This document shows, piece after piece, positions 2,964-63,586 of a stretch of DNA of 64,000 nt. A model generated the notes under the pieces. The model made no database searches. It had not been told where the DNA came from and saw only the letters and a program-made list of their open reading frames with translations. Where the stretch lies: positions 2,108,001-2,172,000 of the forward strand of contig NZ_CP027783.1 of assembly GCF_003795125.1 (NCBI RefSeq). Reading direction: 5' to 3'. Source of the DNA: Tetragenococcus osmophilus (GTDB lineage Bacteria; Bacillota; Bacilli; Lactobacillales; Enterococcaceae). Both the position numbers and the translations under genes were made by a program. Within the stretch, counting starts at the first letter, position 1, and every line of letters begins with the position of its first letter.

Positions 2964-3156
2964 TATGTCCTGAATTTATTTTCAGGACATAGATCCAGTA
3001 GACTTATGTTCTGAAATCTTAAAACAAGCATAAAAACTATGAAAATTAGAACTTAAGAGCCATTTCAGGACATAAAACTATTCATTTCATGTCCTGAAAC
3101 GAAGCTCAGGTCATAAGTCGAGCGAAGCTATGTCCTGAACTTTTTTTCAGGACATA
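2964..3156. repeat. Array A: 28-nt palindromes, 41-bp period, family TATGTCCTGAA
   Basis: Five units start at 2964, 3005, 3047, 3088 and 3129, about 41 bases apart. A full unit is TATGTCCTGAA, a six-base loop, then TTCAGGACATA. Units 1 and 5 are perfect, unit 4 has a mismatch, unit 2 keeps only the left arm and unit 3 only the right arm. The 13-base linkers differ (gatccagtagact, aaactattcattt, agtcgagcgaagc). The array lies about 70 bases past the wecB stop codon, where no ordinary terminator is visible, and next to the IS end. The same family occurs 40 kb away at 43670-43944. Confidence 0.9.
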
Positions 3157-3225
3157 ACTTAAAAGTTCATTAGCTAAATTTTAAATATAAACCGTCTTTT
3201 TAAAAGTTGCCTATTTTTGAATAAA

Positions 3226-4341
3226 TTAGTCTTCTTCATTTTTAGAAAAATATTGTTGAATCGCCTCTAAAATATACTCGCTAGCAAAGCCATCGCCGTA
3301 CGGATTTTTAGCTTGCGCCATAGCAGCATGGGTTTGTGGATCAGTCAATAATTCTTTTGTCGCTTGATAAATGTCTTCTTCTTGCGTTCCAATTAATTTT
3401 AATGTACCCGCTTCAATTCCTTCTGGGCGTTCCGTTGTATCGCGTAAAACAAGTACAGGTACGCCTAAGGAAGGTGCCTCTTCTTGTACACCACCAGAAT
3501 CACTTAAAACTAAATAACTATTGGCAATAAAGTTATGAAAATCAACAACGCCCAAAGGTTCAACTAAACGAACATTTTCCAAATCTGACAACTTTTCTTT
3601 AGCCAATTGACGTACTTGAGGATTTTTATGCATAGGAAAAACAATAGATACATCCGAAAATTCTCGAGCAATGCGTCTCAAAGCAGAAAAAACTTGTGTC
3701 ATCGGCGCTCCTAAATTTTCGCGACGATGCATGGTAAGAACTAATTGTCTTTGGTTAGTTGACGCCAAAGAAGGTGCGGTATAGTCTGTCTTCACAGTAA
3801 ATTTCATCGCATCAATAGCTGTGTTCCCCGTTACAACAATAGATTTTTCCGGATGATTTTCTGCTAATAAGTTTTGTTTACTTTGATCAGTAGGAGCAAA
3901 AAATAAATCGGCTAAAGCATCAGTCATTTGTCTATTTGCTTCTTCAGGAAATGGCGAATATTTATTCCAAGTCCGTAATCCAGCTTCGACATGTCCGATT
4001 CTTACTTGTTGGTAAAAAGCTGCCGTAGCTGCTGCAAATGTTGTCGTAGTGTCTCCATGCACAAGAACCATGTCCGGTTTTTCTTTTTGTAAAATAGGTT
4101 GTAAATCTAACAAGACTTTTGTTGTAATATCAGTTAATGTTTGGCCTTGTGCCATAATATTTAAATCATAGTCAGCAACAATATCAAAAATTTGTAATAC
4201 TTGGTCTAACATATCTCGATGTTGAGCTGTAATAACTGTTTTAGCTACAAATCGTTCATCATTTTTTAACGCATTCACAACTGGGGCCATTTTGATTGCT
4301 TCTGGTCGCGTACCAAATATGGACATCACTTTGATTGGCAT
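3226..4341 (-). CDS. wecB: UDP-N-acetylglucosamine 2-epimerase (non-hydrolysing)
   Basis: The enzyme interconverts UDP-GlcNAc and UDP-ManNAc in the cytoplasm, supplying ManNAc for wall teichoic acid linkage units or surface polysaccharide. The family signature is clear: IFGTRPEAIKMAPV at the N terminus, VHGDTTTTFAAA, GHVEAGLRT, PEEANRQMTD, TMHRREN, and the nucleotide-binding DSGGVQEEAPSLG with RDTTERPEG. At about 371 residues it has the usual length. I chose the ATG at 4341 because GAGGTG lies six bases upstream; the longer GTG start at 4348-4350 is part of that Shine-Dalgarno. It is a single gene with no polysaccharide genes beside it in this window. Confidence 0.93.
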   Translation of the reverse strand: MPIKVMSIFGTRPEAIKMAPVVNALKNDERFVAKTVITAQHRDMLDQVLQIFDIVADYDLNIMAQGQTLTDITTKVLLDLQPILQKEKPDMVLVHGDTTTTFAAATAAFYQQVRIGHVEAGLRTWNKYSPFPEEANRQMTDALADLFFAPTDQSKQNLLAENHPEKSIVVTGNTAIDAMKFTVKTDYTAPSLASTNQRQLVLTMHRRENLGAPMTQVFSALRRIAREFSDVSIVFPMHKNPQVRQLAKEKLSDLENVRLVEPLGVVDFHNFIANSYLVLSDSGGVQEEAPSLGVPVLVLRDTTERPEGIEAGTLKLIGTQEEDIYQATKELLTDPQTHAAMAQAKNPYGDGFASEYILEAIQQYFSKNEED

Positions 4342-4390
4342 CTCTTTCACCTCAGTGTTATTCTACCAGACCAAACAAGATCAAGCCATT

Positions 4391-5377
4391 CTAAATTGTA
4401 TCCCCGTTAAAAATGGAATTTTTTACAATCGCATAATCAACTGTACGAATGGAATCTAAATCTTTGCCTCCAGCATAAGAAATAGAAGATTGTAAGTCTT
4501 GTTGCATTTCATCCAAAGTGTCTTGGAAAGGTCCTTTATGCACAACCCAGATCTTTTTGCCTTCAACGTTTTTCTTCTCGCCTTTTTGAAATTCTGAAGC
4601 TGAGCCAAAATATTCTTTATAGACTGTTCCATTTTCAACTTTAGTTTCACCAGGAGATTCTTCATGACCGGCAAATAAAGAACCGATCATAACCATCGTT
4701 GCACCAAAGCGAACGGATTTAGCAATATCTCCGTGATCGCGAATACCGCCATCAGCAATAATGGGTTTTCTAGCTGCTTTTGAACACCAATGTAAAGCAG
4801 CCAGTTGCCAACCGCCTGTACCAAATCCTGTTTTTAGTTTTGTAATACAAACTTTTCCTGGACCAATTCCGACTTTTGTCGCATCAGCGCCAGCATTTTC
4901 TAATTCTCGGACAGCCTCAGGAGTACCCACATTTCCGGCAATAACGAAAGTATTTGGCAAACTTTTTTTAATATATTGAATCATTGCGATCACTGCATTT
5001 GAATGACCATGAGCAATATCGATTGTTATATAGTCAGGTGCAAGTTTCTCTTTCGCTAATTCTTCGACAAATGCATATTCGCCTTCTTTAACACCTACAC
5101 TAATGGAAGTAATTAATCCTTTGTTCTTCATTCTTTTTATAAACGGGATTCTTGCTTGTTCATCAAAGCGGTGCATAATATAAAAGTAGCCTTTTTCTGC
5201 CAAAGATTCTGAAATAGTCTCATCGACGATCGTTTGCATATTAGCTGGCACAACAGGCATTTTAAACGTATGTTTTCCTAAAGTAACGCTCGTATCACAT
5301 TCTGAGCGGCTGTCAACGATACATTTATTAGGAATTAACTGAATGTCTTCATAATCAAATACTTGCATATCAAACAT
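4391..5377 (-). CDS. guaC: GMP reductase
   Basis: It catalyses NADPH-dependent reductive deamination of GMP to IMP, returning guanine nucleotides to the central purine pool. The IMPDH/GMPR TIM barrel is recognised by [10 protein letters not shown], the IMP-binding loop [17 protein letters not shown] with the catalytic cysteine, [15 protein letters not shown], and [15 protein letters not shown]. The 328-residue length and the lack of a CBS-domain insert separate it from IMP dehydrogenase. The ATG at 5377 follows AGAGGA by eight bases. Upstream there is a candidate promoter (TTGCAA, 17 bases, TAAGTT). Together with purB, the purK-like gene and xpt it forms a purine interconversion neighbourhood. 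Confidence 0.95.
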
Positions 5378-5476
5378 TGGGAAGATCCTCTCGCTTCGTT
5401 CGTTATTTTTTTCAAACCTCTAATAACTTAACGTAAAAATAATGGATTTGCAATTAAAGACTTTATTTTCTATAAA

Positions 5477-5521
5477 TAAAACAGTCGATCATTCGTTCAT
5501 CACGAACAATCGACTGTTTTT
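5477..5521 (-). terminator. Rho-independent terminator of the purK-purB-aldo/keto reductase unit
   Basis: The arms AAAACAGTCGAT and ATCGACTGTTTTT enclose a further small inverted repeat (gttc/gaac). On the minus strand the stem is followed by TTTTATT. It overlaps the stop codon of the aldo/keto reductase. Confidence 0.85.
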
Positions 5522-6434
5522 AAGGTAAATGATTACCAGCTGCTAAGTAAAGTTGATACCAATCTTTTCTACTTAATTGGATCTCAGAAGCTTGCGCAAT
5601 TTCTTCAATCCGTTGAGTGTTCATCGTTCCAGCAATTACTTGCATATTAGCTGGATGTCGCAAAATCCAAGCAGAAGCAAGTCCAGTAGGTGTAGTTTGA
5701 TATTTTTCAGCTAATTCATCTAGCTTTTGATTTAACTCAGGAAAACGTTTGTTAGCAATAAATACTTCTTTTACAAGACTTGCTTGATAAGGCGACCATG
5801 CTTGTACTGTCATATTTTCCAAACGGGAGAAATCCAAAACCCCTTCATCTCGTTGGCTTATCTGTTCTTTTCCTCGGTTAACATTTAATCCTTCGTCTAC
5901 CATCCCAGAGTGCATAAGACCAAATTGTAATTGGTTTGCTTCTAGTGGTTGTTCAACAACGTTTTGTAATAATTTAACTTGTAAAGGACTGTGATTGCTT
6001 ACACCAAAATGTCGAACTTTTCCTTGCGCTTTTAGTTCATCAAAAGCTGCGGCTACTTCTTCTGGGTCCATTAACGCATCTGGACGATGTAAAAGCAAAG
6101 AATCCAAATAATCTGTTCGCAGCCGCTTTAGACTACCATTCACAGCTTCAATAATATGCTCTTTTGAAAAGTCATACATTTCACCTGGAACAATTCCACA
6201 TTTTGATTGGATAAACAGATCTTCTCGTTTAATCGATGTTTTCGCTAAACTTTTAGCAAAAATTTTCTCACATTCGCCTTGGCCATAGATATCAGCGTGA
6301 TCAAAAAAAGTAATCCCATTATTAACCGCCGTTTGCAATACTTTTACTGGGTCGTCAGCTGAGTTCATTCGCATGCAACCTAAAACAATACTTGGTAACA
6401 ATGTTCCTGTTGTGCCAAACGCTACTTGTTTCAT
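5520..6434 (-). CDS. Aldo/keto reductase (YdhF/YcsN type)
   Basis: This NAD(P)H-dependent oxidoreductase of about 304 residues has the TIM-barrel aldo/keto reductase fold. The tetrad is visible as Asp and Tyr in DHADIYG, Lys in QSKCGI and His in LLLHRPD. GVSNHSP and the C-terminal AWILRHPANMQVIAGTMN cofactor-binding stretch are also present. The substrate cannot be told from sequence. AGGAGG lies six bases before the ATG at 6434, and the gap to purB is about 10 bases, so it is co-transcribed with purB. A functional link to purines is not obvious. Confidence 0.9.
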   Translation of the reverse strand: MKQVAFGTTGTLLPSIVLGCMRMNSADDPVKVLQTAVNNGITFFDHADIYGQGECEKIFAKSLAKTSIKREDLFIQSKCGIVPGEMYDFSKEHIIEAVNGSLKRLRTDYLDSLLLHRPDALMDPEEVAAAFDELKAQGKVRHFGVSNHSPLQVKLLQNVVEQPLEANQLQFGLMHSGMVDEGLNVNRGKEQISQRDEGVLDFSRLENMTVQAWSPYQASLVKEVFIANKRFPELNQKLDELAEKYQTTPTGLASAWILRHPANMQVIAGTMNTQRIEEIAQASEIQLSRKDWYQLYLAAGNHLP

Positions 6435-6444
6435 CTTCTTCCTC

Positions 6445-7743
6445 CTAGTCTTTTAATCCTACCCGTTCAAAAATATCATCTACGTGTTTTAAATGGTACC
6501 GATAATCAAAAGCATCATCGAGTTCTTCTTTAGACAAAACAGAAGTTACCTTTTGATCTTTTTCTAATAATGAACGAAAATCTGTTGGTTCATCCCAAGC
6601 TTGTGCTGTTTTAGGCTGAATTAAATCATAAGCCTCTTCTCGTGTCATTCCGTGGTCAATCAGTTTTAATAAGACCCGTTGACTGTAAATTAAACCGAAA
6701 GTAGCTCCCATATTTTTTTTCATATTTTCAGGCAAAACAGTTAAATTATCTAAAATATTAGTAAATCGGTGAAGCATATAATCAAGTAAAATAGTGGTAT
6801 CTGGAATAATGACTCGTTCGGCAGAAGAATGAGAGATATCTCGTTCATGCCACAAAGAGACATCTTCATAAGCCGTAAGCATATGACCACGCATAACTCG
6901 TGCTAAGCCAGCCATATTTTCTGAACCGATGGGATTTCTTTTATGCGGCATCGCAGAAGAACCCTTCTGTCCTTTAGCAAAATATTCCTCTACTTCACGT
7001 GTTTCCGACTTTTGCAAACCACGAATTTCAGTTCCGAATTTCTCAATACTTGTTGCAATTAAAGCCATAGATGCAATATATTCTGCGTGCAAATCCCGTG
7101 GCAAAACTTGTGTAGAAATATCTTGGGCTCGCAAGCCTAAATGCTCACATACGAATTGTTCAACAAATGGCGGAATATTGGCAAACGTTCCTACAGCACC
7201 ACTGATCTTTCCAGCTTCAACACCGCTAGCGGCGTGTTCAAAGCGTTCAATTTGACGTTTTACTTCCGCATACCATAAAGCAAGCTTTAAACCAAAAGTC
7301 GTTGGTTCCGCATGAACGCCATGAGTCCTTCCCATCATAACCGTATATTTATATTCTTTAGCTTTTTTTCCAATTGTTTCAGCAAATTTAGCTAAATCTT
7401 CTCGCAAAATCTTATTCGCCTGTTTCATTAAATAGCCGTAAGCCGTATCCACAACGTCGGTAGATGTCAATCCGTAATGAATCCATTTGCTCTCCTCGCC
7501 TAAAGTCTCAGAAACAGCACGTGTAAAACTAACCACATCATGTCTTGTTTGCGCTTCTATTTCTTGAATTCTAGAAACATCAAAAGAAGCATTGGCTTTG
7601 ATCTTTTCTACATCTTTTTGCGGAATTTCTCCTAATTCAGCCCAAGCCTCATCAGCTAAAACTTCAACCGCTAACCAAGCGTCATATCGATTTTCATCAG
7701 ACCAAATTTTTCCCATATCTTTACGTGTATAACGTGCTAGCAT
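6445..7743 (-). CDS. purB: Adenylosuccinate lyase
   Basis: It cleaves adenylosuccinate to AMP and fumarate, and SAICAR to AICAR and fumarate, acting twice in purine synthesis. The protein is about 432 residues. The fumarase/aspartase superfamily signature [15 protein letters not shown] is intact, with [12 protein letters not shown] and [14 protein letters not shown] carrying the usual catalytic His regions. I start it at the ATG at 7743 ([11 protein letters not shown]), preceded by AAGGAGA; the 12 extra upstream codons overlap this ribosome binding site. It sits 16 bases after the purK-like gene and directly before the aldo/keto reductase. Confidence 0.96.
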
Positions 7744-7759
7744 ACTTTTCTCCTTTAAA

Positions 7760-8893
7760 TTACAAATTTGTCTCAGCAATCTCTGCTAAAATTGATTCTG
7801 GCGCAGACGTTGGAATCGTTATATGTCCCATTTTCCTATTATTTACCGTTCTTTTTTTGCCATAATAATAAAAATTCCAATTGGATTTTTCCAATATTAA
7901 TCGCAAGCTCGTATTTAATGCTTCCCCTAAAATGTTGACTGTAACAGCTTGACTCAATAGTTGAATATCTCCTAAAGGCCAACCACAAATACCACGAATG
8001 TGGGCATCAAATTGACTGATATTGCAGACATCAACCGAATAATTTCCAATACTATGAGGTCGAGGTGTTAATTTAGTAACATAAATACTTCCTGCTTTAG
8101 TTAAAAGCACTTCAATAGCTAATACGCCATGCAATCCTAGAGCTTCACCCACTTGTCGTCCAATTCGTTGAACTTCTTGACTGACTTCAGTAGCTATATC
8201 TGCAGCTACAATTGTTTCAAACAAAACTCCATCACGATAAATATTTTCTACTACGGGGAAAGTGGTATATTCTAGCCCATTTCCTGCAACCAAAACGGAT
8301 AATTCTTTTTCAGAAGGAATGGAAGCTTCTAATACACAAGTTCCTTCTCTAAGTAAACTCATCGAAGGTGCCAAGTCAGACATATTATTTAAGGTATATT
8401 GTTGTGTGCTATCACGTGTGGTTTTTAACACACAAGGAAAGCCTATACTATCCACTGCATCCTGAATATCTGTAGGACTAATGATTGTTTCATACGGTGG
8501 AATAACAATATTATTTGTTTCTAAAAAGGAGTTTTCCATCAAGCGATCTTGAGTAACTGCCAATAGATCGGTACCTTGTGGAACATTGGCTAAATCAATC
8601 ACAGTGTTTAAACTTTCAACACCGATTTTACTGGTTTCATAAGTAACCGTATCACTGCGTTTAGCTAAAGCTTCTAAAGCAAGTACATCATCGCAATCTG
8701 CGACAATATGCCAATCTGCTAACTGAGCAGTAGGACAATCGCTTACAGGATCTAACACTCCCACATGAAATCCCATATTTTTCGCACTGATTGTCATCAT
8801 CTTACCTAACTGTCCACCGCCGACAATACCAATTGTTCCACCTGGCATCAAAGGTCTGACCAAGTTGATCCCTACTTTCCATAATTGTTTCAC
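7760..8893 (-). CDS. purK: PurK-like ATP-grasp protein, divergent at active-site motifs
   Basis: The overall match is to N5-carboxyaminoimidazole ribonucleotide synthase: [14 protein letters not shown] at the N terminus, ATP-grasp middle, and a C-terminal [13 protein letters not shown]...ICGWPLG region. Key motifs are altered. The glycine-rich loop normally following VLKT is replaced by RDSTQQYTL, and the metal-binding NEIAPRPHN-type motif reads TKLTPRPHS, losing its Asn-Glu. The first metal glutamate (AIEV) remains. It may therefore be a paralogue with reduced or changed activity; purE is not adjacent. The start is uncertain: GTG at 8893 has a poor ribosome binding site, while TTG at 8863 or ATG at 8848 would match normal PurK length better. 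Confidence 0.75.
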
Positions 8894-8989
8894 TTCTACT
8901 TTTAAATGATACCTTGAAAAACATATAGCCGCAAGAGCTCTTCAAATAGTTAAAAAATTTTTTTCTAAAAAATAATCATTCATAAACAA

Positions 8990-9024
8990 AGAACCAGCCG
9001 AGCAATCCATTGCCAAGCTGGTCT
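8990..9024 (-). terminator. Terminator of xpt
   Basis: The arms ACCAGC and GCTGGT enclose an inner GCAAT/ATTGC pair. On the minus strand the hairpin is followed by the T-rich TTCTTTGTTT. It lies about 40 bases past the xpt stop. Confidence 0.65.
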
Positions 9025-9063
9025 GTTAAACCACTCTTTTAGATACGAGTTTGTTATTTAAAC

Positions 9064-9648
<585 letters not shown>

Positions 9649-9664
9649 TTACTCTCCTTTTTCA

Positions 9665-9704
9665 ATTAAAAAAACACCTTTTTTGACTAAGCAAAAAAGT
9701 GTGT
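9665..9704 (-). terminator. Riboswitch expression-platform terminator before xpt
   Basis: On the minus strand the arms ACACTTTTTTGC and CAAAAAAGGTGT form a hairpin followed by seven Ts, between the aptamer and the xpt ribosome binding site. The upstream segment TTGTGTCCACTCACAC overlaps it and could contribute to the alternative fold. Confidence 0.8.
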
Positions 9705-9722
9705 GAGTGGACACAATTTTTT

Positions 9723-9786
9723 ACTTATAGTCCAATATTTACGGTATCGGGTAGAAACAGTCGACCAATTACGGCTATATATAAGT
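9723..9786 (-). promoter_or_regulatory. Purine riboswitch, guanine type, upstream of xpt
   Basis: On the minus strand the aptamer is flanked by P1 arms ACTTATA and TATAAGT. Conserved features are the J2/3 sequence GTTTCTACC, the loop sequence CCGTAAAT, and GGACTATA at the 3' side. The C in GACTAT is the specificity base that pairs with guanine; adenine-sensing members have GATTAT. Binding should stabilise P1 and allow the terminator at 9665-9704 to form. Confidence 0.92.
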
Positions 9787-9803
9787 ATAAAGTACTTACT
9801 AAT

Positions 9804-9832
9804 ATTATGCCTATATAAAAAGTAAATTACAA
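9804..9832 (-). promoter_or_regulatory. Candidate xpt promoter
   Basis: On the minus strand TTGTAA (9827-9832) and CATAAT (9804-9809) are separated by 17 bases, just upstream of the riboswitch aptamer, the expected place. Confidence 0.5.
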
Positions 9833-9900
9833 GTACTGACCGCTTATTTTCTAATAAAAATTGCAAAATTATAGTTTTATGCGTTAATATCGAATTCTTA

Positions 9901-9944
9901 AAAAAACAACGCCTTAACTTAGAATATGTTAAAGCGTTGTTTTT
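9901..9944 (-). terminator. Terminator of cstA
   Basis: AAAAACAACGC and GCGTTGTTTTT form a strong stem, extended by ttaac/gttaa. It lies 15 bases past the cstA stop and could work in both directions. Confidence 0.88.
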
Positions 9945-9958
9945 AATTATTTACAAAC

Positions 9959-11458: not shown

Positions 11459-11511
11459 TTAATAGCCTCCTTATTTATTTCTTACGTTAAGTATAACGAA
11501 TGAAAAAGGTT

Positions 11512-43588: not shown

Positions 43589-43620
43589 AAGAAGAAAAAC
43601 CTCCAAATGAAGTTTTTCTT
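43589..43620 (-). terminator. Terminator-like hairpin upstream of parE
   Basis: On the minus strand AAGAAAAACTTC and GAGGTTTTTCTT pair imperfectly and run into a T tract. It could end transcripts coming through palindrome array B from the CoA-binding protein gene. Confidence 0.6.
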
Positions 43621-43669
43621 TAGAAATAACTAATTTTTGAAGCAGCGTAGGCAGGTTTAAGCTAACACT

Positions 43670-43944
43670 TATGTTCTGAGTTGAATTTCAGAACATGGAT
43701 CATTAAAACTTATGTCCTGAACTTATACTCAGAACATAAGTCAACACATCCTATGTCCTGAAATCATATTCAGGACATAAATCAATGATAGTTATGTACT
43801 GAAATCGCACTCAGGACATAACTCAGGCTTTTTCCAAGCTAAATTTATACTTTCAGAACATAAGTTGGCAAAAGTTATGTCCTGAATCTCTTTTCAGGAC
43901 ATAGCTCACCTTAACCTATGTCCTGTAATTGCTTTCAGGACATA
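43670..43944. repeat. Array B: seven 28-nt palindromes, 41-bp period, family TATGTCCTGAA
   Basis: Units start at 43670, 43711, 43752, 43793, about 43834 (degenerate), 43876 and 43917, so the period is 41 or 42. The consensus unit is TATGTCCTGAA, six bases, TTCAGGACATA, often extended by one to three pairs outside. Linkers are 13 bases and mostly unrelated to each other, as are the loops. Unit 1 has TTCTGA opposite TCAGAA, a compensated change in both arms. The array ends 30 bases past the stop of the CoA-binding protein gene. Same family as array A. Confidence 0.92.
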
Positions 43945-43973
43945 GATCGTCTCATTTTTATCAAATTCCCAAA

Positions 43974-44408
43974 TTAACTTTGTTGTTGATCCAATTTCCC
44001 TAACTCAATTTTGATGCAACGGTCCATTATGATGTCATGACGTCCAGCATCTTGTAATTTTTTTGCTGCTTCTTCGTTTTCAATTCCCAACTGAGCCCAA
44101 AAAACTTTGGCATCAGTTTCTAAGAAATCATCAGCAACGTCAGGTAAAAATTCACTACGACGAAAGATATCTACAATATCAATGGAAACCGGAACATCTT
44201 GTAAACGTGCATAAACTTTTTCGCCTAAGATTTCTTGTCCGGCTAGTTTGGGGTTTACTGGAAAAATATTGTACCCGTGTTTTTGAACCACTTTACTTAC
44301 TTGATAACTTGTTCGTTCCGTATTATTACTTAACCCAACTACAGCGATATTTTTGGCTGTTTTTAAGTAATGTTGGATTGTTTGTTCATCTGGATTTTGA
44401 AAAGCCAT
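43974..44408 (-). CDS. CoA-binding domain protein (YccU type)
   Basis: 144 residues with a Rossmann-like CoA-binding fold: IAVVGLSNNTERTSYQVSKVV at the N terminus, YNIFPVNPKLAGQEILGEKV in the middle and a conserved VDIVDIFRRSE. Members are small and of unclear function, possibly binding CoA or a nucleotide. The ATG at 44408 follows AAAGGAG. It is divergent from plsY and followed by palindrome array B. Confidence 0.88.
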   Translation of the reverse strand: MAFQNPDEQTIQHYLKTAKNIAVVGLSNNTERTSYQVSKVVQKHGYNIFPVNPKLAGQEILGEKVYARLQDVPVSIDIVDIFRRSEFLPDVADDFLETDAKVFWAQLGIENEEAAKKLQDAGRHDIIMDRCIKIELGKLDQQQS

Positions 44409-52309: not shown

Positions 52310-52472
52310 TAAAAGGCCCCTTTCTTAAATGGTTTCTTACTATTTAAATAGCCATTTAATTTTCGAATAACAAATCGTAGCCTATCATAGCCATTTGGGA
52401 ATGGTTTGTCAAGCAAGGAACTATAAATGAAATAGAAAATGACCTCTATATGTCTTAAAAATACCAAATTAG

Positions 52473-52664
52473 CTTTCCTATCATAGCACTATTGGAGGGA
52501 CATTGTTCGATGTGCCACCAATCTGTAAATTATTGGTGGCAACTTCTCTAATGTGCCACCAATCTGTAAACTATTGGTGGTAACTTTTCTGATGTGCCCC
52601 CAATTTGTAAATTATTGGTGGCAACTTCAGTGATGTGCCCCCAATAGTTATAGTTATTGATAGC
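52473..52664. repeat. Array C: 41-bp tandem units, palindrome family GCCACCAAT
   Basis: Units start at 52473 (left arm lost, right arm ATTGGAGGG), 52514, 52555, 52596 and 52637, exactly 41 bases apart. A full unit is GCCACCAAT, nine bases (ctgtaaatt or close), ATTGGTGGC, then a 14-base linker aact....tgatgt that is itself conserved. Units 4 and 5 have GCCCCCAAT. The array lies 17 bases past the dprA stop and upstream of topA; no other terminator of dprA is visible. Confidence 0.92.
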
Positions 52665-52680
52665 AAAAATAATTACTCAA

Positions 52681-55307: not shown

Positions 55308-55336
55308 ATCATAAACGTTTTGACTTAAGCTTTCAA
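55308..55336 (-). promoter_or_regulatory. Candidate promoter of rbgA-rnhB-dprA
   Basis: On the minus strand TTGAAA (55331-55336) and TATGAT (55308-55313) have 17-base spacing, about 70 bases before rbgA and after the lepB terminator. Confidence 0.6.
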
Positions 55337-55360
55337 TTCTTATGCAAAATTTTTTCTCTT

Positions 55361-55405
55361 AAAAAGTCTTGCAAAGATGAACGACTCAACTTTACAAGAC
55401 TTCTT
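55361..55405 (-). terminator. Terminator of lepB
   Basis: AAGTCTTGCAAAG and CTTTACAAGACTT pair with one mismatch, followed by a T run on the minus strand. Confidence 0.85.
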
Positions 55406-55406
55406 A

Positions 55407-55952: not shown

Positions 55953-55977
55953 TTCGTCATCGGTCCCGTCTAATTCC

Positions 55978-57390
55978 TCATTTTGTTAGTTTTTCAACTG
56001 CTTTTTTATATACTGGATCCGTTTCTTGAATTTTTTGAACGATTTCTTGTTCAATTGCTGAACTTGTCTCTTTATTGACGCTACCACTTTGTTCGAGATC
56101 ATTTTTTTCCTGAAAATCTAGTACGGCTTGTTCAGTTTCTTCGCTAAATTCTTCCCCTTTTGTTTCATATCCTAAAGCTTGTAAGAATTCATTCAAGTTC
56201 TTAGTATCATCGGAACTGTCACCTTTTTCTAGATCCTCATCTTTAGACAGTGGTGGCAAATAAGCATAATCAGGTAAATCTGCTTCAATCGTTGGTTCAA
56301 CACCCTTTTCGTTGATCCATTCGCCTTTAGGTGTGAGCCATTTTTGTATGGTCATTTTCACTTCACTATTATCAGAAAAATCATTAACGCTTTGTACAGT
56401 CCCTTTTCCAAAAGTGTTCGTGCCAACAATTGGAATATCAGCTGATTCTTTTAAAGCAGCTGCAAAAATTTCCGAAGCAGAAGCACTTTGTTTATCCACT
56501 AATACTGTAGTAGGTTCATTTACCTTGAAGCCACCGTCCAACCGCTCAGAGGCTTTACTTTCACTAGTAATTTCGTCATCTGTCCCAAATTGGACAATCT
56601 TTTTCCCATCTTCTAAAAACATACTAGCCATCTCTTCTACTTGATCTAGATACCCTCCAGGGTTTTGTCGCATATCAATAACAAAAGATTCTGCACCTTG
56701 CTTACGTAAACTTTTAATCGCATCACGTAATTCTTGCGCTGTATTTTCATTAAAGCTAGCTATTTCGATACTTCCAATATCTTGGTGATCTTCATCAAGT
56801 TCATAATTTAAGGATTCAAGGGGGATCGTATCACGTTTGATCTCTACTTCGAAATTATCCTCTTGGCGTTCAACTTCTAATTTCACAGTAGTCCCTTTTT
56901 CTCCACGAATAGTTTGTACTACCGTATCTAGCTCTTTTCCTTCCGTTTCTTTTCCGTCAACTTTTAATATTTTATCTTTTGCTCGTAAACCTGCTTTATC
57001 GGCTGGGCTATCCTTTACAGGTGCTTCAGAAACTTCGGGTAGGTTATCTACAATCGTTAGCGTAGCACCGATCCCTTCAAAATCTCCTGATAATGAATCA
57101 TTAAATTTTTCAGCTTCTTGTTCTCCCAAATAAGAAGTATACGGATCATCTAGTGCATCCGTCATTCCTTCTAGAGCTCCTTCAATCAGTTCATTGTCAT
57201 CCACATCTTCATAATAATTTCTTTGAATATCATTGTATAAAGCTTGCACTTTATACAAATCGTTTCGTGACAAAGAAGAAGCTTGAAAACTATGGCTTGT
57301 TGTAAGCCAATAAACTAAACCTCCAGAAATAAGTGCAACTACTATTAAAGAAATGATATATTTGGCAAAAGATATTTTTTTATTTTTCAT
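55978..57390 (-). CDS. ctpA: S41 C-terminal processing protease (CtpA)
   Basis: About 470 residues. A signal-anchor segment (IISLIVVALISGGLVYWL) is followed by a PDZ domain (about residues 90-180), the S41 protease core with SASASEIFAAALKES (Ser) and GTNTFGKGTVQ (Lys), and a C-terminal peptidoglycan-binding domain 1 near residues 390-450. It degrades or trims exported proteins at the cell surface. The ATG at 57390 follows GAGGTG by four bases; the upstream ATG at 57408 is unlikely. Confidence 0.94.
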   Translation of the reverse strand: MKNKKISFAKYIISLIVVALISGGLVYWLTTSHSFQASSLSRNDLYKVQALYNDIQRNYYEDVDDNELIEGALEGMTDALDDPYTSYLGEQEAEKFNDSLSGDFEGIGATLTIVDNLPEVSEAPVKDSPADKAGLRAKDKILKVDGKETEGKELDTVVQTIRGEKGTTVKLEVERQEDNFEVEIKRDTIPLESLNYELDEDHQDIGSIEIASFNENTAQELRDAIKSLRKQGAESFVIDMRQNPGGYLDQVEEMASMFLEDGKKIVQFGTDDEITSESKASERLDGGFKVNEPTTVLVDKQSASASEIFAAALKESADIPIVGTNTFGKGTVQSVNDFSDNSEVKMTIQKWLTPKGEWINEKGVEPTIEADLPDYAYLPPLSKDEDLEKGDSSDDTKNLNEFLQALGYETKGEEFSEETEQAVLDFQEKNDLEQSGSVNKETSSAIEQEIVQKIQETDPVYKKAVEKLTK

Positions 57391-57420
57391 GTAGCACCTC
57401 GACTTCACACTTAACCGCTT

Positions 57421-57642
57421 TTATCGATTATTTTCCAAATATTTCTGCCAAATTCGATCAAAAATATCCATATTATCTAAGTAATTAACATTCATCTCTA
57501 GATAATCAGATATTTCTTCATAGTTCTCACTTTGTTTAGGAAATTGAATGTCTTTTGAAGCTTGATTGGCAAATACTTGTTCTTCATCAGAAGAATTAGG
57601 CCCGCGCAAGGTCATTAAATAATGATAAAAACTACGCTTCAT
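57421..57642 (-). CDS. YozE-family SAM-like protein
   Basis: 73 residues. [12 protein letters not shown] at the N terminus and [24 protein letters not shown] match the YozE_SAM_like domain of Firmicutes, function unknown. Its ATG overlaps the msrA stop as ATGA, so it is translated with msrA. The order msrA-yozE-type is found in Bacillus and enterococci. Confidence 0.9.
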
Positions 57643-58154
57643 TTATCCCAATTCTCCTTTATAAAAGCAGCTCTCTTGGCATGATTTCTAGCGAAATTCT
57701 CAGGATTTTTCTTATAAAAGTCTTGGTGATACATTTCCGCTGGATAAAAAGTTTGAGCTGGTTCAATTTCAGTCACAATCGGCTGACTAAACCGCCCACT
57801 ATCTTGTAATTCTTGACGACTTTTTTCAGCGATTTCTTTTTGTTCTTCATTTAAATAATAAATCACCGGGCGATAGTTATCTCCGCGATCTTGAAATTGG
57901 CCAAAAGCATCCGTGGGATCTGTCTGTTGCCAATAAATTTCGACCAAGTCTTTATAAGAAATAATCTCTGGATCAAAAATAATTTCCACAGCTTCTGTAT
58001 GTCCTGTCGCTTGGGTAACCACTTGTTCATAAGTTGGGTTTTCTGTATGTCCACCTGTATAACCAGATACTACAGAATAAATTCCAGCTTGTTCGTCAAA
58101 TGGGTGGACCATGCACCAAAAGCAGCCACCAGCAAAAATTGCTCGTTGTTTCAT
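57639..58154 (-). CDS. msrA: Peptide methionine sulfoxide reductase MsrA
   Basis: 171 residues. It reduces methionine-S-sulfoxide in proteins. The catalytic cysteine is C11 in [32 protein letters not shown] and RYEQFQ-like [17 protein letters not shown] complete the signature. No fused MsrB is present and no msrB lies next to it. It overlaps the yozE-like gene by four bases and follows ypmS. Confidence 0.96.
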
Positions 58155-58164
58155 ACAATCACTC

Positions 58165-58809
58165 CTATTTTTCTTTGTCTTGAGGTAAGTATAAACTTAC
58201 TTGGATATCATCATCAACTAAATTGATTTTTTCAGCTTTTACAAATAAACCATTCTCCATGCGGAATTGGTCGAGTCGCACTAACACTTGTTCTTCATCT
58301 GGATCAAATTCAATCCACTTAGGGAATTTAAAACTTTTTTCAATCATTTTCATTACTTGTTTAACAGGAAGATCTAATGTTCCTACTGACAAGCTATCTG
58401 CTTGTAATTGTACATTTCCATTATCAGTGACATAAGGATCAAAATACAAATAAAAAGTAATTGGAGCTCCTAATATTTCAAACTCTCCGGTTAATAATGC
58501 TTGATTTTCCAATTGAAAATGATACTCTACGTCAGAATCTTCCTGATAATTCTGCAAGTAAAAATCCATTAAGGAGTTAATTTGTTCTTTATCACTATTA
58601 ATAGATAAAACCGGCTCTCCTTCTCTTTGTACAAGAGGTTGGGTATCATATTGAATAGCCTCTCTTTGTTGAGTAGCACGGAAAAAGAAAAAGGCGGATA
58701 AACCCAAAATAAGTCCTAATAGAACAAGAAAGGCAACTTTCCATTTATTTGTTGCTGGCTTTTCTTCATTTGTTTTGTCTTTTTTATGTTTATGTTTTTG
58801 CTCTTTCAC
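58165..58809 (-). CDS. YpmS-family membrane protein
   Basis: About 214 residues. A lysine-rich cytoplasmic tail, one membrane segment ([21 protein letters not shown]) and an extracellular beta-rich domain, ending VSLYLPQDK, match YpmS (DUF2140). Function unknown; probably linked to the YpmR lipase. The start is the GTG at 58809, overlapping the ypmR stop as GTGA, with GAGGAG eight bases upstream. Confidence 0.88.
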
Positions 58810-59699
58810 GACGCGTTCTCCTCTGTTAGCCAAGTACTTCTGGTGTCATCAATTTTTTTCATAACTTCCTGTGTAACTAATTGATAACCGATCGTATTAG
58901 GATGAAAATTATCTTCTTCATAAAGTGCTTTATTTTTCACCTTATCTAAGTCATTTTCTTCTTGAGTTGAAGACGTGGTTTCTTCTTCTGTATTTATCGC
59001 TGCTTCATCCTCAGTGCCTTGCGAAATAACTTCGTTAATAGGAACAAAATAGGCGTTATCGTCTTTTTCGACAATTTCTTGCGTTCCTTCGTCCCAGTTT
59101 TCTATGATTGTTTGCATATCTTCAATTTCTGGAAAATTGACATAAAATGGATTATAAACGCCTACCACATAGATTCCTGCATTTTCATTTAGATTACGTA
59201 TTTCTTGAATCATTTCAGAAAGATTTTCCTGATATTTTTGTAATGGTTTTTCAAAAGAATCTACAGATAAGCCAAATATATTCTTTTTTATAACCTTCAT
59301 AATGTCATTACCGCCTAATGTTAAGGTAATGATATCAGAAGAAGCAATGTCATTTTGGGTCTGGTCGTCTTCTTTTATACGCTGCAAAATTTGATCACTA
59401 CGTTCTCCAGCAACACCATAATTATCTACTTCAACACTATTCACAGGATAATCATCTTGCAAGTCATCCGCTACTAAAGATACGAAGCCACCATTTTGTG
59501 TCGCATCTCCTACGCCTTCTGTCAGTGAATCACCGACAGCGGTATAATGAAGTCTTTTTTTATTTTCATCATTTGCAACACTTGCAGTAGCTGATAATTG
59601 CGGTTGCGCTTTAGGCATAGCTAAATGAAGGATAAAAAAAGTTATAAAAGCAATACCAACCACACTAAAAAATGGAATAAAAAACTTTTTATGCTTCAT
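58806..59699 (-). CDS. SGNH/GDSL lipase-esterase (YpmR type)
   Basis: 297 residues with an N-terminal signal anchor (FFIPFFSVVGIAFITFFILHL). SGNH blocks are intact: Ser in VGDSLTEGVGD, Gly in YGVAGERSDQ, Asn in LGGNDIM and Asp/His in DNFHPNTIG. It is an extracellular hydrolase of unknown substrate, perhaps an acetylated wall or lipid group. It is coupled to ypmS by an overlap of four bases. Confidence 0.9.
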   Translation of the reverse strand: MKHKKFFIPFFSVVGIAFITFFILHLAMPKAQPQLSATASVANDENKKRLHYTAVGDSLTEGVGDATQNGGFVSLVADDLQDDYPVNSVEVDNYGVAGERSDQILQRIKEDDQTQNDIASSDIITLTLGGNDIMKVIKKNIFGLSVDSFEKPLQKYQENLSEMIQEIRNLNENAGIYVVGVYNPFYVNFPEIEDMQTIIENWDEGTQEIVEKDDNAYFVPINEVISQGTEDEAAINTEEETTSSTQEENDLDKVKNKALYEEDNFHPNTIGYQLVTQEVMKKIDDTRSTWLTEENAS

Positions 59700-59823
59700 A
59701 AAAGCATCCTCTTTCTACGCTTTTTTAACTTTGATTTAATAAAATTTATATACAATCAGTTTATCAAAAATAAAGAAAGATTCGTACTGAAATCTCTTTT
59801 TATTCATCAAAATTTAAAGAATC

Positions 59824-59853
59824 AAAAAAGAGCCATAAACAGGCTCTTTTTTA
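59824..59853. terminator. Terminator of the degV gene
   Basis: AAAAAAGAGCC and GGCTCTTTTTT form a perfect 11-bp stem with T tracts on both strands. Confidence 0.92.
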
Positions 59854-59863
59854 AATTCTTTTA

Positions 59864-60712
59864 TCAAGCTTGGTCTGCATAATACATAATCGCAAAAGCA
59901 TCTTTACCTGTATGCGTTGCAATAATCGGAGTCGTATGCAGTAAATAAATTTCTAATTGAGGGAATAATTCTTGCAGTTCATTTTTGTATTTTTCACACT
60001 GCTCTTTCCCTCCAGCATAAGAAATACCAATTTTTTTCACTGTCGAATTATTTTTCAATTCATTTTTTAATCGCTCAAACCATTTATTAAATGTTTTAGC
60101 TCCGCGACCCTTTACAATAGGAAATAAATCACCATTTTTAAACTCCATAATGACACGTATACTCAATATACTAGATAAAAGACCTTTAGCACGACTAATA
60201 CGCCCACCTTTAACTAGGTTTTCAAGAGTAGATACGCCGATATATAATTTGGTGTTTTTTAACATCTGTTGGATTTCAGGAAGGATCTCTTCTGAAGTTT
60301 TTTCTTCTTGTGCTAACTCAGCAGCCCTTAACACCGCAAAAGCTAAGGATTGATCTGTGGTTTCAGTATCAACAACAGTTACTTTACTTTTCGTGATGTT
60401 ACTTGCTTGTTTGGCTGCATCAACCGTCCCGCTTAAGGTTTCAGACATATGGATTGATAAAATTTCGCTACCATCTTCACCTAATTCATCATATAAATTA
60501 ACAAACTCACCGATAGGCGGTTGACTCGTTTTAGGCAAATTTTTGGCTTTTGCCATCATTTCCATGAATTGTTCACCAGAAAGATTTTCATCATCTGTAT
60601 AAACTGTTCCATCAATCATCACAGAAAGAGGGACCACATGGATATTATATTGATCCCTTAAGCTGGGCTTCATCGTTGCTGATGAGTCCGTTACTATTTT
60701 AGTTTTTACCAT
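59864..60712 (-). CDS. DegV-family fatty acid-binding protein
   Basis: 282 residues. KIVTDSSATMKPSLRDQY at the N terminus, PKTSQPPIGEFVNLYDELG, and IHMSETLSGTVDAAKQA match DegV/FakB proteins, which hold a fatty acid for phosphorylation by FakA. Which fatty acid, or whether a FakA partner is used, cannot be told here. AAAGAG precedes the ATG. Monocistronic. Confidence 0.92.
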   Translation of the reverse strand: MVKTKIVTDSSATMKPSLRDQYNIHVVPLSVMIDGTVYTDDENLSGEQFMEMMAKAKNLPKTSQPPIGEFVNLYDELGEDGSEILSIHMSETLSGTVDAAKQASNITKSKVTVVDTETTDQSLAFAVLRAAELAQEEKTSEEILPEIQQMLKNTKLYIGVSTLENLVKGGRISRAKGLLSSILSIRVIMEFKNGDLFPIVKGRGAKTFNKWFERLKNELKNNSTVKKIGISYAGGKEQCEKYKNELQELFPQLEIYLLHTTPIIATHTGKDAFAIMYYADQA

Positions 60713-60831
60713 AATTTTCTGTTCACTCTTTCTTTCAGCAGTGTCGCCCTTTTACAAGCGGTCAAAGCCAGATCATTTCATTGTTTATTATAACAGAATG
60801 AACAGGAATTTTCATCAAAAATAAATTGTTA

Positions 60832-61899
60832 TTATAAAGCTTCAACAGCTTGAATCGCAGCAAATATTTGCTCCTCTGTGACTTCTGGGTCTATCATACG
60901 AAAAGTATCATCTGCAGCAGCTGCTTGTCTGACAACAGGGGCTAGCCCTTCTTTTGAAATATCCGTAACGTTCATTTGAGCTAATTTTGTTGGCAAGCCA
61001 ATCATCTCATAAAAAGGATAAACCTCTGTTATTTTATCGAAATCGTTTGTATAAGCCAACTGAACTAAGATACCATAAGCAACTTTTTTACCATGTAAGG
61101 CATCATGTGTATTTTCTAAATAAGAAAGACCATCATGTACAGCGTGAGCCCCGGCAGAACGACCGTAACTTACCGCAAATCCACCCGTTTCTCCAGCAAG
61201 AGCAATAATCGTATCTGTCACTCGGGTAAAAGCTGGAGAAATTTCTTGCTGTTGTAATGAATGAATGGCATTTTGTGAATCTGATAATAAAATAGCTGCG
61301 ATTTCCTTAGCACAAGCTATGCCTAAACGAGTATACGCAGATATTTGTGCTTTATCTAATGTATCTGTAATCCCTGTAATTTCGTACCATTTCGCTAGCG
61401 TATCACCAATACCTGCTACAAAATAATCGACAGGTGTAACTAGTAAAAAGTTCCAATCAACCAAAGTCAAATAAGGAGCACGGTTTTGAAACCCCATGCA
61501 ACGAAATGTACGGTTAGGATAATAAACAGCGGTAATAGGTGTAAATGGAGCACAATTTGAAATTAATGTAGGAATTAAAATAACATCACAATTTAAGTTT
61601 TCAGCCGTTAACTTGGCTGTATCCATAACACGTCCACCGCCAATTCCCACAATGGCATCAGCCTTACCAATTTGTTCAGCAAGCGTTTGAGCATTTTCAT
61701 AACTTGCACTTCCATCATAACGATAGACAGGAAAATCTAATTCTTTTTGATAAAAGTCATTAAATACTTGATAGGAAGTCTCTCCAGTAACCACAGAAAC
61801 TTGGTTAAATTGTGCTAAATAATCTGGTAAATCTTCTAGTACGTCCGTTCCACTCACATAGCGATTTCCTCCTGGACGTACTTCATCATTAATATTCAT
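60832..61899 (-). CDS. Iron-containing alcohol dehydrogenase family (GldA-like)
   Basis: 355 residues. The NAD-binding GIGGGRVMDTAK and the metal site are recognisable: Asp in GIGDTLAKW, His in AGAHAVHDGL, and His in ENTHDALHGKKVAYG. The sequence is nearest to glycerol dehydrogenase-like members, but the substrate is uncertain. AGGAGG precedes the ATG. A CodY-box-like sequence lies about 85 bases upstream. Confidence 0.85.
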   Translation of the reverse strand: MNINDEVRPGGNRYVSGTDVLEDLPDYLAQFNQVSVVTGETSYQVFNDFYQKELDFPVYRYDGSASYENAQTLAEQIGKADAIVGIGGGRVMDTAKLTAENLNCDVILIPTLISNCAPFTPITAVYYPNRTFRCMGFQNRAPYLTLVDWNFLLVTPVDYFVAGIGDTLAKWYEITGITDTLDKAQISAYTRLGIACAKEIAAILLSDSQNAIHSLQQQEISPAFTRVTDTIIALAGETGGFAVSYGRSAGAHAVHDGLSYLENTHDALHGKKVAYGILVQLAYTNDFDKITEVYPFYEMIGLPTKLAQMNVTDISKEGLAPVVRQAAAADDTFRMIDPEVTEEQIFAAIQAVEAL

Positions 61900-61983
61900 G
61901 GCAAACCTCCTAAGTAATTGAAATTGGACTTAGTTTACAATGGATTTTTTCACGCGTCAACGTTGAAAACGCATTATATTTAT

Positions 61984-61998
61984 AATTTTCAAAATATT
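61984..61998. promoter_or_regulatory. CodY-box-like sequence
   Basis: AATTTTCAAAATATT matches the CodY consensus AATTTTCWGAAAATT except at two positions. It lies between the iron-type dehydrogenase and trhA, which are divergent. In AT-rich DNA such matches occur by chance, so confidence is low. Confidence 0.35.
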
Positions 61999-62057
61999 CA
62001 CTAAGTTTATACAGGAATAAAAAATCATTAAACGTCCATTATGTTTAAGAAATATTC

Positions 62058-62086
62058 TTGAATATAAAAGGGTTTACGTGTATAGT
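62058..62086 (+). promoter_or_regulatory. Candidate trhA promoter
   Basis: TTGAAT (62058-62063) and TATAGT (62081-62086) are separated by 17 bases, about 48 bases before the GTG start. Confidence 0.55.
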
Positions 62087-62133
62087 CGAATTAAGAGCAA
62101 ACGAACAACTGTTTCTGGGAATGGAGGAATCTA

Positions 62134-62787
62134 GTGGAAAATAGTAAATTTACGCACAGATATTTAATAACAAACGAAGTTTTTAATGCGATCACTCACG
62201 GCATTGGTTTTGGTTTAAGTATTGCAGGTCTTGTCATTTTGCTATTAAACGGAACACAACTTGGCTCTTCTCTCCATGTTGTATCCTATAGTATTTATGG
62301 TTCAATGTTAATTTTGCTTTTCCTAATTTCTACTTTATTTCACAGTTTGATATTTACTAAAGCAAAAAAAGTTTTCCAAGTTTTTGATCATGCTTCCATA
62401 TTTTTACTGATTGCTGGTAGTTATACTCCTTTTTGTTTATTAAGTATTGGCGGCGTTTTTGGATGGATATTATGTGGCATCATTTGGCTGTTAGCCATTA
62501 GCGGAATTGTCTATAAGTCATGTACCTTGCAAAAAAAAGAAACTGTCTCTAAACTTTCCACCTTTATTTATGTTTTAATGGGTTGGGGTTGTGTGATTGC
62601 TTTTCGCCCATTAATTGACTCATTAGGAACCTGGGGCTCCCTGCTTTTAGCTGGCGGAGGTTTAGCCTATACTATCGGCGCCATTTTTTATAGTTTTAAA
62701 AATGTACGCTTTATGCATGTTGTATGGCACCTATTTGTTATGTTGGGTGCAGCGTGTATGTATTTTTCGGTTCTGTTCTTCACTTAA
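62134..62787 (+). CDS. trhA: Hemolysin III family membrane protein (TrhA/YqfA)
   Basis: 217 residues, PAQR-fold protein with seven membrane segments. Conserved metal-site residues are visible in LFHSLIF, VFDHASIFLLI and HVVWHLFVM. Members affect membrane energetics or fatty acid composition; the name hemolysin is historical. The start is GTG at 62134 after GGAGGA. Followed by a terminator. Confidence 0.92.
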   Translation: MENSKFTHRYLITNEVFNAITHGIGFGLSIAGLVILLLNGTQLGSSLHVVSYSIYGSMLILLFLISTLFHSLIFTKAKKVFQVFDHASIFLLIAGSYTPFCLLSIGGVFGWILCGIIWLLAISGIVYKSCTLQKKETVSKLSTFIYVLMGWGCVIAFRPLIDSLGTWGSLLLAGGGLAYTIGAIFYSFKNVRFMHVVWHLFVMLGAACMYFSVLFFT

Positions 62788-62800
62788 CATTGTAAATGAT

Positions 62801-62845
62801 GGCCTTAAATATTAGTTTATATCCTGATATTTGAGGCTTTTTTTA
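62801..62845 (+). terminator. Terminator of trhA
   Basis: GCCTTAAATATTAG and CTGATATTTGAGGC pair imperfectly and run into seven Ts. Confidence 0.88.
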
Positions 62846-62868
62846 TTAAAAATTCGAAGGAGGTTTTC

Positions 62869-63324
62869 ATGGAAAAACAAGATAAGATTCAAAAGTATTG
62901 GCAAAAGTTTGTCCAAGAAAAGAAAATCCATACAACAAAATATACAGCTTGGTCCTTTGGATATAGTAAACAGATAGCTGACGAATTAGCTAAATTAGTA
63001 GCCAAAGGAGATAAAACTGCGACAACTTCCGCTTTTGACCTCTACGAAGAAAATGAAGAAAAACCAAGAGTTGGGGAATATAATATTATCTTAGACGGTG
63101 ATCAACAACCGGTTTGTATTACAAAAACCAAAGTTGTAGAAGTGATCCCCTTTTACCTTGTGTCTGCAGAACATGCTTACCACGAAGGAGAAGGCGATCG
63201 TAGTCTTAAATATTGGCGTGAGATTCACGAAGAATTTTTTAGAAGAGAGTATGCAAAAACAGACAAAAAATTCACTACGGATCTTCCTTGTCTTTGCGAA
63301 GTGTTTGAGGTCGTTTATATTTGA
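62869..63324 (+). CDS. ASCH domain protein
   Basis: 151 residues. The ASCH fold, related to PUA RNA-binding domains, is recognised by WSFGYSKQIADELAKLV, GDKTATTSAFDLYE, GEYNIILDGDQQPVCITKTKVVEVIPF and the final CEVFEVVY. Members act on RNA or modified nucleosides. GAAGGAGG precedes the ATG. Its stop codon lies within the first, degenerate unit of palindrome array D. Confidence 0.9.
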   Translation: MEKQDKIQKYWQKFVQEKKIHTTKYTAWSFGYSKQIADELAKLVAKGDKTATTSAFDLYEENEEKPRVGEYNIILDGDQQPVCITKTKVVEVIPFYLVSAEHAYHEGEGDRSLKYWREIHEEFFRREYAKTDKKFTTDLPCLCEVFEVVYI

Positions 63325-63586
63325 GCTTTCCTTTTTGCTTTTGAATAAAAAAATACAAATACTTTATTCAATATTTAAAAATTGGGTAAAGAATTTTCTT
63401 TCTTCTATTCAATAAGGCATTATCATAGCTGAAACTTCTCAAAAAAGGGCATTATTGAATAACCGACGACCATTCTTTTACTCGTTTTGTTAAAATTGAA
63501 CAATACTTTTTAGTACGATTCTTCAATATTTAAAAATTGAGTAAGGAGATCCGTACTCTTTACTCAATTTCGCCTTATTATTTTCT
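63322..63586. repeat. Array D: 28-nt palindromes, 41-bp period, family TTTACTCAAT
   Basis: Units start at 63322 (only right arm), 63363, 63404, 63436, 63477, 63518 and 63559; steps are 41 except one of 32, as if nine bases were lost. The best unit is TTTATTCAAT, atttaaaa, ATTGGGTAAA (63363-63390). The consensus is TTTACTCAAT, eight bases, ATTGAGTAAA. Several units keep just one good arm. The array fills the space between the convergent ASCH and folA stop codons and overlaps both. Confidence 0.82.

Follow-up and report, generated by a model that had tools for sequence, protein, structure and literature searches.

Palindrome arrays with a 41/42-bp period in Tetragenococcus: MITE-like elements that may carry a lattice of protein half-sites

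Tetragenococcus is a salt-loving lactic acid bacterium belonging to a Gram-positive group used in food. Here we consider four intergenic arrays of palindromes (A to D) in 64,000 nucleotides of Tetragenococcus osmophilus DNA, namely positions 2108001-2172000 of a 2.33-Mb contig (NZ_CP027783.1) in a genome of 2.38 Mb. We refer to this whole stretch as the window and to the genome as G000. Other Tetragenococcus genomes are coded G001-G008, with G005 being T. muriaticus DSM 15685, and L codes denote sampled stretches. The original prediction, made from the letters of the window, described palindromes of 27-29 nt placed 41 bp apart at the 3' ends of genes, with three unrelated sequences sharing one spacing.

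Results

Four palindrome arrays in the window

Half-site scans located all four arrays, none of which is assigned to a strand:

2963-3157, no strand: array A, family A with YTATGTCCTGA half-sites and a degenerate stretch at about 3004-3075 (half-site scan and sequence)
43669-43945, no strand: array B, family A, with an odd unit without one arm at about 43822-43863 (half-site and period-41 scans)
52491-52665, no strand: array C, family C with TGCCNCCAAT half-sites (half-site scan and sequence-blind scan)
63339-63569, no strand: array D, family D with TTATTCAATA half-sites, interrupted; the flanking ASCH and DHFR genes converge on it

Steps of 41 bp occur in each of them. Half-sites of the same orientation start at 2963, 3004, 3087, and 3128 in array A (steps of 41, 83, and 41 bp, the 83-bp step covering the degenerate stretch), at 43669, 43710, 43751, 43792, 43875, and 43916 in array B (41, 41, 41, 83, and 41 bp), and at 52513, 52554, 52595, and 52636 in array C, where every step is 41 bp. 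Array D has 41 bp between several neighbors in each orientation, yet it is interrupted and more degenerate than first described. The palindrome length originally given holds for C (29 bp, as 10+9+10) but not for A (30 bp, as 11+8+11) or D (about 26 bp), and weaker extensions reach beyond these limits. Tandem Repeats Finder detects only arrays B and C, missing A and D because loops and spacers vary while the arms are kept.

A period of 41 or 42 bp

Unbiased tests drew on 864 kb of G000, comprising the window and 40 stretches of 20 kb. Our sequence-blind scan reports any 9-mer recurring with its inverse at a period P, where P ranges from 28 to 61 bp. It returned 17 arrays, 13 at 41 bp and 4 at 42 bp, and none at the remaining 32 periods. 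One block-wise shuffle of the same 864 kb gave no arrays. The scan is strict, such that array D and several other arrays known from half-site scans escape detection. Applied to six other Tetragenococcus genomes (13 stretches, 260 kb) it found two arrays, both at 42 bp, and it found none in 382 kb from 15 other genera of the family (20 genomes, 20 stretches). When palindrome centers were compared irrespective of their letters across the 864 kb, 45 pairs lay 41.0 bp apart and 65 pairs 20.5 bp apart, against a per-lag mean of 2.7. A chance origin of the 41-bp period is excluded, and the excess anticipated from the window extends to the larger sample.

Spacing is held while sequence drifts

Each unit consists of two inverted half-sites, with orientation alternating about every 20.5 bp. 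Alternating half-site starts are 19/22 bp apart in families A and C, 19/23 bp in a further family, E, and 16/25 bp in D, the motif of which is anchored differently from the other three. Same-orientation distances equal 41 bp in 202 of 266 cases for A, 212 of 246 for C, and 33 of 67 for D, and 42 bp in 35 of 36 for E. In family A, half-sites with at most two mismatches and neighbors within 40 bp enclose a loop of 8 bp in 122/128 palindromes and are separated by a spacer of 11 bp in 106/106 cases. Allowing three mismatches and imposing no limit on neighbors, the loop is 8 bp in 130/139 and the spacer 11 bp in 116/127.

The sequences between the arms are far less uniform than their lengths. On average, 38% of inner loop positions and 41% of those in the inner spacer carry different letters in adjacent A units. 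Comparing 100 loop pairs and 77 spacer pairs from adjacent units, we counted 556 substitutions and 14 length changes, compared to 38.2 length changes expected at the ratio observed in flanking DNA (five short alignments of flanks, with 7 gap events and 102 substitutions; neighbors more than 60 bp apart were excluded). All 14 length changes fall in loops, and spacer length is equal in 77 of 77 pairs. Spacing is held while sequence drifts, in keeping with the common constraint originally proposed, as the period is retained in units of divergent sequence. Judging by eye, many A arrays also contain an odd unit, frequently in the central part, with a T-rich and partly conserved stretch in place of one arm.

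Arms change slowly at orthologous loci

Six orthologous pairs of arrays could be compared between G000 and T. muriaticus. Changed positions numbered 30/816 in arms, 96/666 in loops and spacers, and 145/1489 in flanks. The T. muriaticus copy of array B looks homogenized, and we set this pair aside in a second count, which gave 16/684, 42/563, and 98/1229, respectively (arms versus loops and spacers, Fisher p = 2e-5). Defining the arms from T. muriaticus instead gave the same picture (32/812, 106/700, and 133/1459 with array B; 18/680, 52/597, and 86/1199 excluding it). Arms change three to four times more slowly than loops and spacers at orthologous loci. Two pairs, at 2227013 and 2234398, carry little information given flanks that are about 99% identical to T. 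muriaticus.

The 8.4 kb around array B are 89% identical between G000 and T. muriaticus. Unlike this region, the flanks of two A arrays within about 2224500-2236500 of the G000 contig (C1) are about 99% identical to contig C10 of G005, as if the region had been recently shared with T. muriaticus.

Several families share one plan

At least four families occur in G000: A (YTATGTCCTGA), C (TGCCNCCAAT), D (TTATTCAATA), and E (TAATGTTCATTC). Family A was found in 2 of 105 genomes of the bacterial family, these being G000 and T. muriaticus. A search of bacterial and archaeal contigs from 84,980 species, a set from which the records of G000 itself are possibly excluded, matched the A pattern in 16 stretches, of which 9 belong to T. 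muriaticus and 7 are single palindromes in unrelated bacteria. Family C is present in 8 of 9 Tetragenococcus genomes and missing from G006. Extending the C pattern gave matches in 3 of 198 genomes sampled from the order, which are the three Tetragenococcus in that sample. Family G, with a 42-bp period and CTTAGGTCAG half-sites, was seen once (G002, L082 11039-11253). Family H (KAATGTCCTAT) follows the same 11-8-11-11 plan in G008 (L113 7533-7780), where it lies at the locus of array B; this locus is occupied by family A in G000 and T. muriaticus.

Two further repeats were observed in passing. A possible fifth family at L034 (about 680-810) has AACTCTAG half-sites roughly 40-41 bp apart and was seen once. 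An inverted pair, AAAAGGAGG/CCTCCTTTT, occurs with a spacing of 149 bp at two loci (L007 5499 and L014 18299).

The families had been described as unrelated in sequence, which is not supported once they are compared in register. For A, C, D, and E, column profiles lined up solely by distance from the loop dyad gave a similarity score of 10.95. Permuting the columns lowered the score to 2.21 ± 2.65 (fraction 0.001), and permuting the bases lowered it to -0.04 ± 2.79 (0.0015). After adding H, represented by only 8 half-sites, we compared nine shifts for each of 10 family pairs; zero shift came out best in 7 of them, and A matched H closely. The families share half-site letters at equal distance from the dyad to a greater extent than permuted columns do, which makes a common ancestor likely: a single ancestral half-site has probably diverged into A, C, D, and E, and into H in one relative.

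Arrays behave like inserted elements

The orthologous sites inspected in G001, G002, G003, G004, and G007 showed no array B (G006 was outside the comparison). Array C was not seen at the orthologous sites of G001, G004, G005, and G008, nor, from match coordinates only, in G002 and G003; the array-C site in G007 does hold a C element. For 19 other G000 arrays we compared flanks with sampled loci of other species, and 8 gave a flank match, including two L012 sites to which no present or empty call was assigned. C arrays occupy matching places in G000 and G001 at two loci with both flanks, and probably in G000 and G004 at one locus with a single flank, and an E array occupies a matching place in G000 and G001. 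Empty sites correspond to an A array (L044, in G004) and a D array (L038, in G002). Unit number varies between orthologous arrays, and arrays L021, L068, and L073 are homogenized.

C elements have a recognizable plan. Those of G004 have a common leader, a tail that is shared less well, and short inverted ends, and AAGTG(T)AAAATT-like short ends are visible by eye in C elements of G004, G007, and G001; for families A, D, and E no such ends were delimited. In the window, one corresponding feature precedes array C:

52426-52490, + strand: possible C-element leader, by degenerate likeness to the leaders of C elements in G004 and G007 (by eye, weak)

Flanks at the C site are highly diverged, which limits comparison of target site duplications. 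Ten leader-bearing G004 loci hold arrays, and no insertion sequence (IS) was seen within the less than 600 bp inspected at each, although no dedicated IS search was made. Array B had no match in plasmids, a C array none in plasmids or phages, and a C element none in plasmids. Among viral contigs, the A pattern had no matches and the C pattern matched at least 120 stretches; among the 80 listed, each is one single site and none is an array, so these matches are probably due to chance. Overall, the arrays are insertion-like, and C elements look like a miniature inverted-repeat transposable element (MITE) carrying a minisatellite. Such elements would have moved by transposition.

The arrays could conceivably be a MITE-borne minisatellite, neutral or selfish, whose period is set by copying (slippage or unequal exchange) and to which no protein binds. 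The homogenized arrays, the differing unit numbers of orthologs, and the leader, tail, and short end repeats of C elements are all consistent with this possibility, for which BrickBuilt of Porphyromonas offers a known parallel (PMC4596501). We nonetheless judge it quite improbable, because the period is retained in units with diverged loops and spacers, arms change three to four times more slowly than loops and spacers at orthologous loci, and several families have one period.

We also considered whether the palindromes are repetitive extragenic palindromic (REP) sequences or bacterial interspersed mosaic elements (BIMEs), moved as single-stranded hairpins by a REP-associated tyrosine transposase (RAYT) of the Y1 type. 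Like BIMEs, the arrays have alternating, evenly spaced palindromes at gene ends (PMC2817692), and a Y1 transposase match exists in 7 of 9 genomes of the genus, including one in G000. Against this, no Y1 match exists in G007 despite its 24 C palindromes, arms are without covariation (see below), and reading by eye found no GTAG-type tag beside the palindromes, although no dedicated search was made. Because G007 lacks a Y1 match, we reject REP/RAYT as the general mover, and we regard an origin of this kind as very improbable. Nor is this a CRISPR array, as the variable parts are 8 and 11 bp and often common to several units, and no cas domain was found among the scanned flanking proteins.

Arrays lie at gene ends

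Of 33 arrays placed relative to genes, 2 lie at the edge of a stretch. Among the other 31, 20 are between tandem genes, 10 are between convergent genes, and one, array B, was initially scored as divergent. The latter call arose from an overlapping open reading frame that misled our script; the Pfam-supported gene at 43974-44408 lies on the other strand, making array B tandem. Background gaps of at least 60 bp are divergent in 88 of 426 cases, giving a probability of about 0.0008 for 0 of 31 divergent, or about 0.007 for at most 1 of 31 if array B is left uncorrected. Arrays avoid divergent gene pairs, and with this correction each of the 31 arrays that could be classified is located at the 3' end of one or both neighboring genes, as the original prediction had it for the window.

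The accompanying claim that arrays mostly lie where no normal terminator is visible applies to only half of the window arrays. Array C has no terminator-like hairpin on the relevant strand and array D has none on either strand, whereas consensus matching alone called such hairpins downstream of arrays A and B:

2851-2878, - strand: terminator-like hairpin downstream of array A and on the same strand as the UDP-GlcNAc 2-epimerase family gene at 3226-4350, which lies upstream
43592-43620, - strand: terminator-like hairpin between array B and a gyrase-B-type gene

A stretch resembling the hairpin at array B is present in related species whose site is without the array. A group II intron with its reverse transcriptase (432 aa) occupies window positions 973-2760, less than about 100 bp from the hairpin at array A; class C group II introns often sit beside terminators. 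Scanning the window with Rfam at gathering score gave five matches, none overlapping an array. Among the Rfam families in the window is the purine riboswitch (RF00167), at 9708-9804.

Neighboring genes of A arrays include, once each, a MerR-type regulator and an IS110-type transposase. No ParB-type match was found among 20 A-array neighbors and 9 window proteins, with the whole genome not being searched for ParB.

Near 0.934 Mb the GC skew switches sign, and stretch L029 at this place has five DnaA-box matches. Of 22 known A-array positions, 7 lie within 150 kb of the point opposite this origin, compared to 2.8 expected (p ~ 0.02), a weak excess that serves as a lead only given that the positions were gathered partly from sampled stretches. 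Placement relative to coordinate 0 (P = 0.047) was dropped in favor of this origin, which both the skew and the DnaA boxes indicate.

Arms do not covary

Complementarity between the two arms was no higher than in permuted pairings of deduplicated units. Complementary cells numbered 961/1111 versus 960.0 permuted for family A (101 units), 985/1250 versus 1002.5 for C (125 units), 343/490 versus 344.2 for D (49 units), and 215/288 versus 215.6 for E (24 units). Among 99 A units, there were 22 double changes preserving pairing versus 21.5 expected, wobble cells numbered 48 on each of the two strands, and other one-sided mismatches numbered 47. The arms of family A have one position profile in common, with positions 4 and 9 being invariant. 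At position 5 of the C half-site, complementary arm bases were rarer than permuted (25 versus 44.5 of 125), which may reflect shared ancestry of units.

Discussion

The explanation towards which we lean, with some reserve, is that these arrays are MITE-like non-coding elements carrying a lattice of predicted protein half-sites in double-stranded DNA. They are interspersed repeats, the arrays of which were seen in Tetragenococcus alone within the sets searched. Half-sites alternating about every 20.5 bp would be two helical turns apart, with four turns to each 41-42-bp unit, and all half-sites may lie on about one face of the DNA. Such a placement on one face, already raised in the original prediction, would fit the spacing. 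A dimeric protein binding cooperatively could then occupy both dyads, one centered on the 8-9 bp "loop" and the other on the 11-bp "spacer", and occupancy of both would account for their lengths being held while their sequences drift. Our best guess is that the role of such elements would be in nucleoid or supercoiling organization, in the manner of BIMEs or sopC.

The unusual feature of these arrays is exact spacing across diverged families. A more far-reaching and tentative version, which we think possible rather than likely, is that the arrays form a genus-wide chromosomal class of repeats in which geometry is selected. A dedicated and undescribed architectural protein, or a set of paralogs, would polymerize on half-sites every two turns, with base preferences drifting along with the elements. 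The letters of families A, C, D, E, G, and H would thereby have come to differ, with hardly any change in spacing (41 or 42 bp), and one locus can carry different families in different species, as the site of array B does. A chromosome-organizing role would agree with the weak clustering of A arrays around the replication terminus.

The arrays might instead act as RNA, forming chains of hairpins in 3' untranslated regions that block exonucleases, end transcription in both directions, or stabilize messages. The location of arrays at gene 3' ends suits such a role, and predicted folding is strong for stretches of arrays B, A, and C (z of -8.6, -6.8, and -4.5). In 49 transcription-oriented A units from 13 arrays, G.U cells outnumber A.C cells by 29 to 15, an RNA-like bias. 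This bias arises at position 1 (18 versus 5), leaving 11 versus 10 elsewhere. However, a stretch of array D folds no better than shuffles (z of -1.1), arm covariation is absent in four families, RNA hairpins have no need of the 11-bp spacer found in 106 of 106 cases, and separate terminator-like hairpins lie downstream of arrays A and B. Taken together, the lack of arm covariation, the fixed loop and spacer lengths, and the slower change of arms favor protein-bound double-stranded DNA over hairpins, and we consider the RNA alternative unlikely. On these grounds, the DNA-level reading raised in the original prediction fits better.

The folding and wobble results also weigh against the protein-site explanation, as do the following observations. 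Phasing of the non-41 distances on the helix gave a resultant of 0.45-0.49 (n = 88), which is no independent test of helical phase, because many of these distances are near multiples of 41. Zero shift ranks third in the register test of A, C, D, and E, being beaten by two of the 729 combinations of shifts, and a nonzero shift wins in 3 of the 10 pairs of families. Units in the ortholog and covariation tests were chosen by their likeness to the consensus, which somewhat inflates conservation. Finally, no binding protein was found, and a Pfam scan of 20 proteins beside A arrays, a subset of the neighbors, revealed no recurring partner.

The original prediction recognized no described element with these properties, although some are close in architecture: MITEs carrying a minisatellite (PMC4596501), BIMEs (PMC2817692), and the F plasmid centromere (PMC6238139). 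BrickBuilt of Porphyromonas gingivalis is an intergenic MITE with 19 copies in one strain, each composed of a leader, tandem units, and a tail (PMC4596501). It resembles the arrays in its dispersed intergenic location, its leader/units/tail plan, its variable unit number, and possibly its small inverted-repeat ends, whereas its unit is a 23-nt direct repeat (PMC4596501) rather than the 41-42-bp dyad of Tetragenococcus, where diverged families of one spacing and with constrained arms occur in several species. BIME/REP units are bound by gyrase, IHF, and Pol I, and are likewise regularly spaced, alternating palindromes that are mostly extragenic (PMC2817692). Unlike them, the Tetragenococcus arrays have no GTAG tag by eye, include a genome (G007) without a Y1 match, and are built from a 41-bp dyad unit with independent arms. 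The F centromere, parS(F)/sopC, is a tandem array whose units measure about 43 bp and contain one inverted repeat apiece (PMC6238139), compared to 41-42 bp here. While sopC is one plasmid locus (PMC6238139), the Tetragenococcus arrays occupy many chromosomal loci, fall into several families, and have no known partner gene. Among the matches listed, our literature searches showed no publication on these arrays, which is not proof that none is in print.

EFAR repeats of Enterococcus faecalis are reportedly grouped with Efa-1. The latter are intergenic stem-loop repeats of E. faecalis, in a related genus, forming a family of 163 positions (PMC2267715). An Efa-1 repeat is a pair of adjacent stem-loops (PMC2267715), and no 41-bp array was found in the 382 kb from related genera, which possibly did not include E. 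faecalis. Satellites of Leptospira interrogans are also non-coding tandem repeats found across the chromosome, with family codes of 37, 46, and 69 that presumably give unit length, and the available portion of that account mentions no dyad half-site organization (PMC6749651).

These arrays represent a natural case separating selection on the geometry of DNA sites from selection on their sequence, in that spacing is kept while letters change. Should a bound protein be found, the logic of plasmid centromeres and BIMEs would have a chromosomal counterpart in a Gram-positive group, and the arrays would provide a test of how DNA-binding specificity drifts together with families of repeats.

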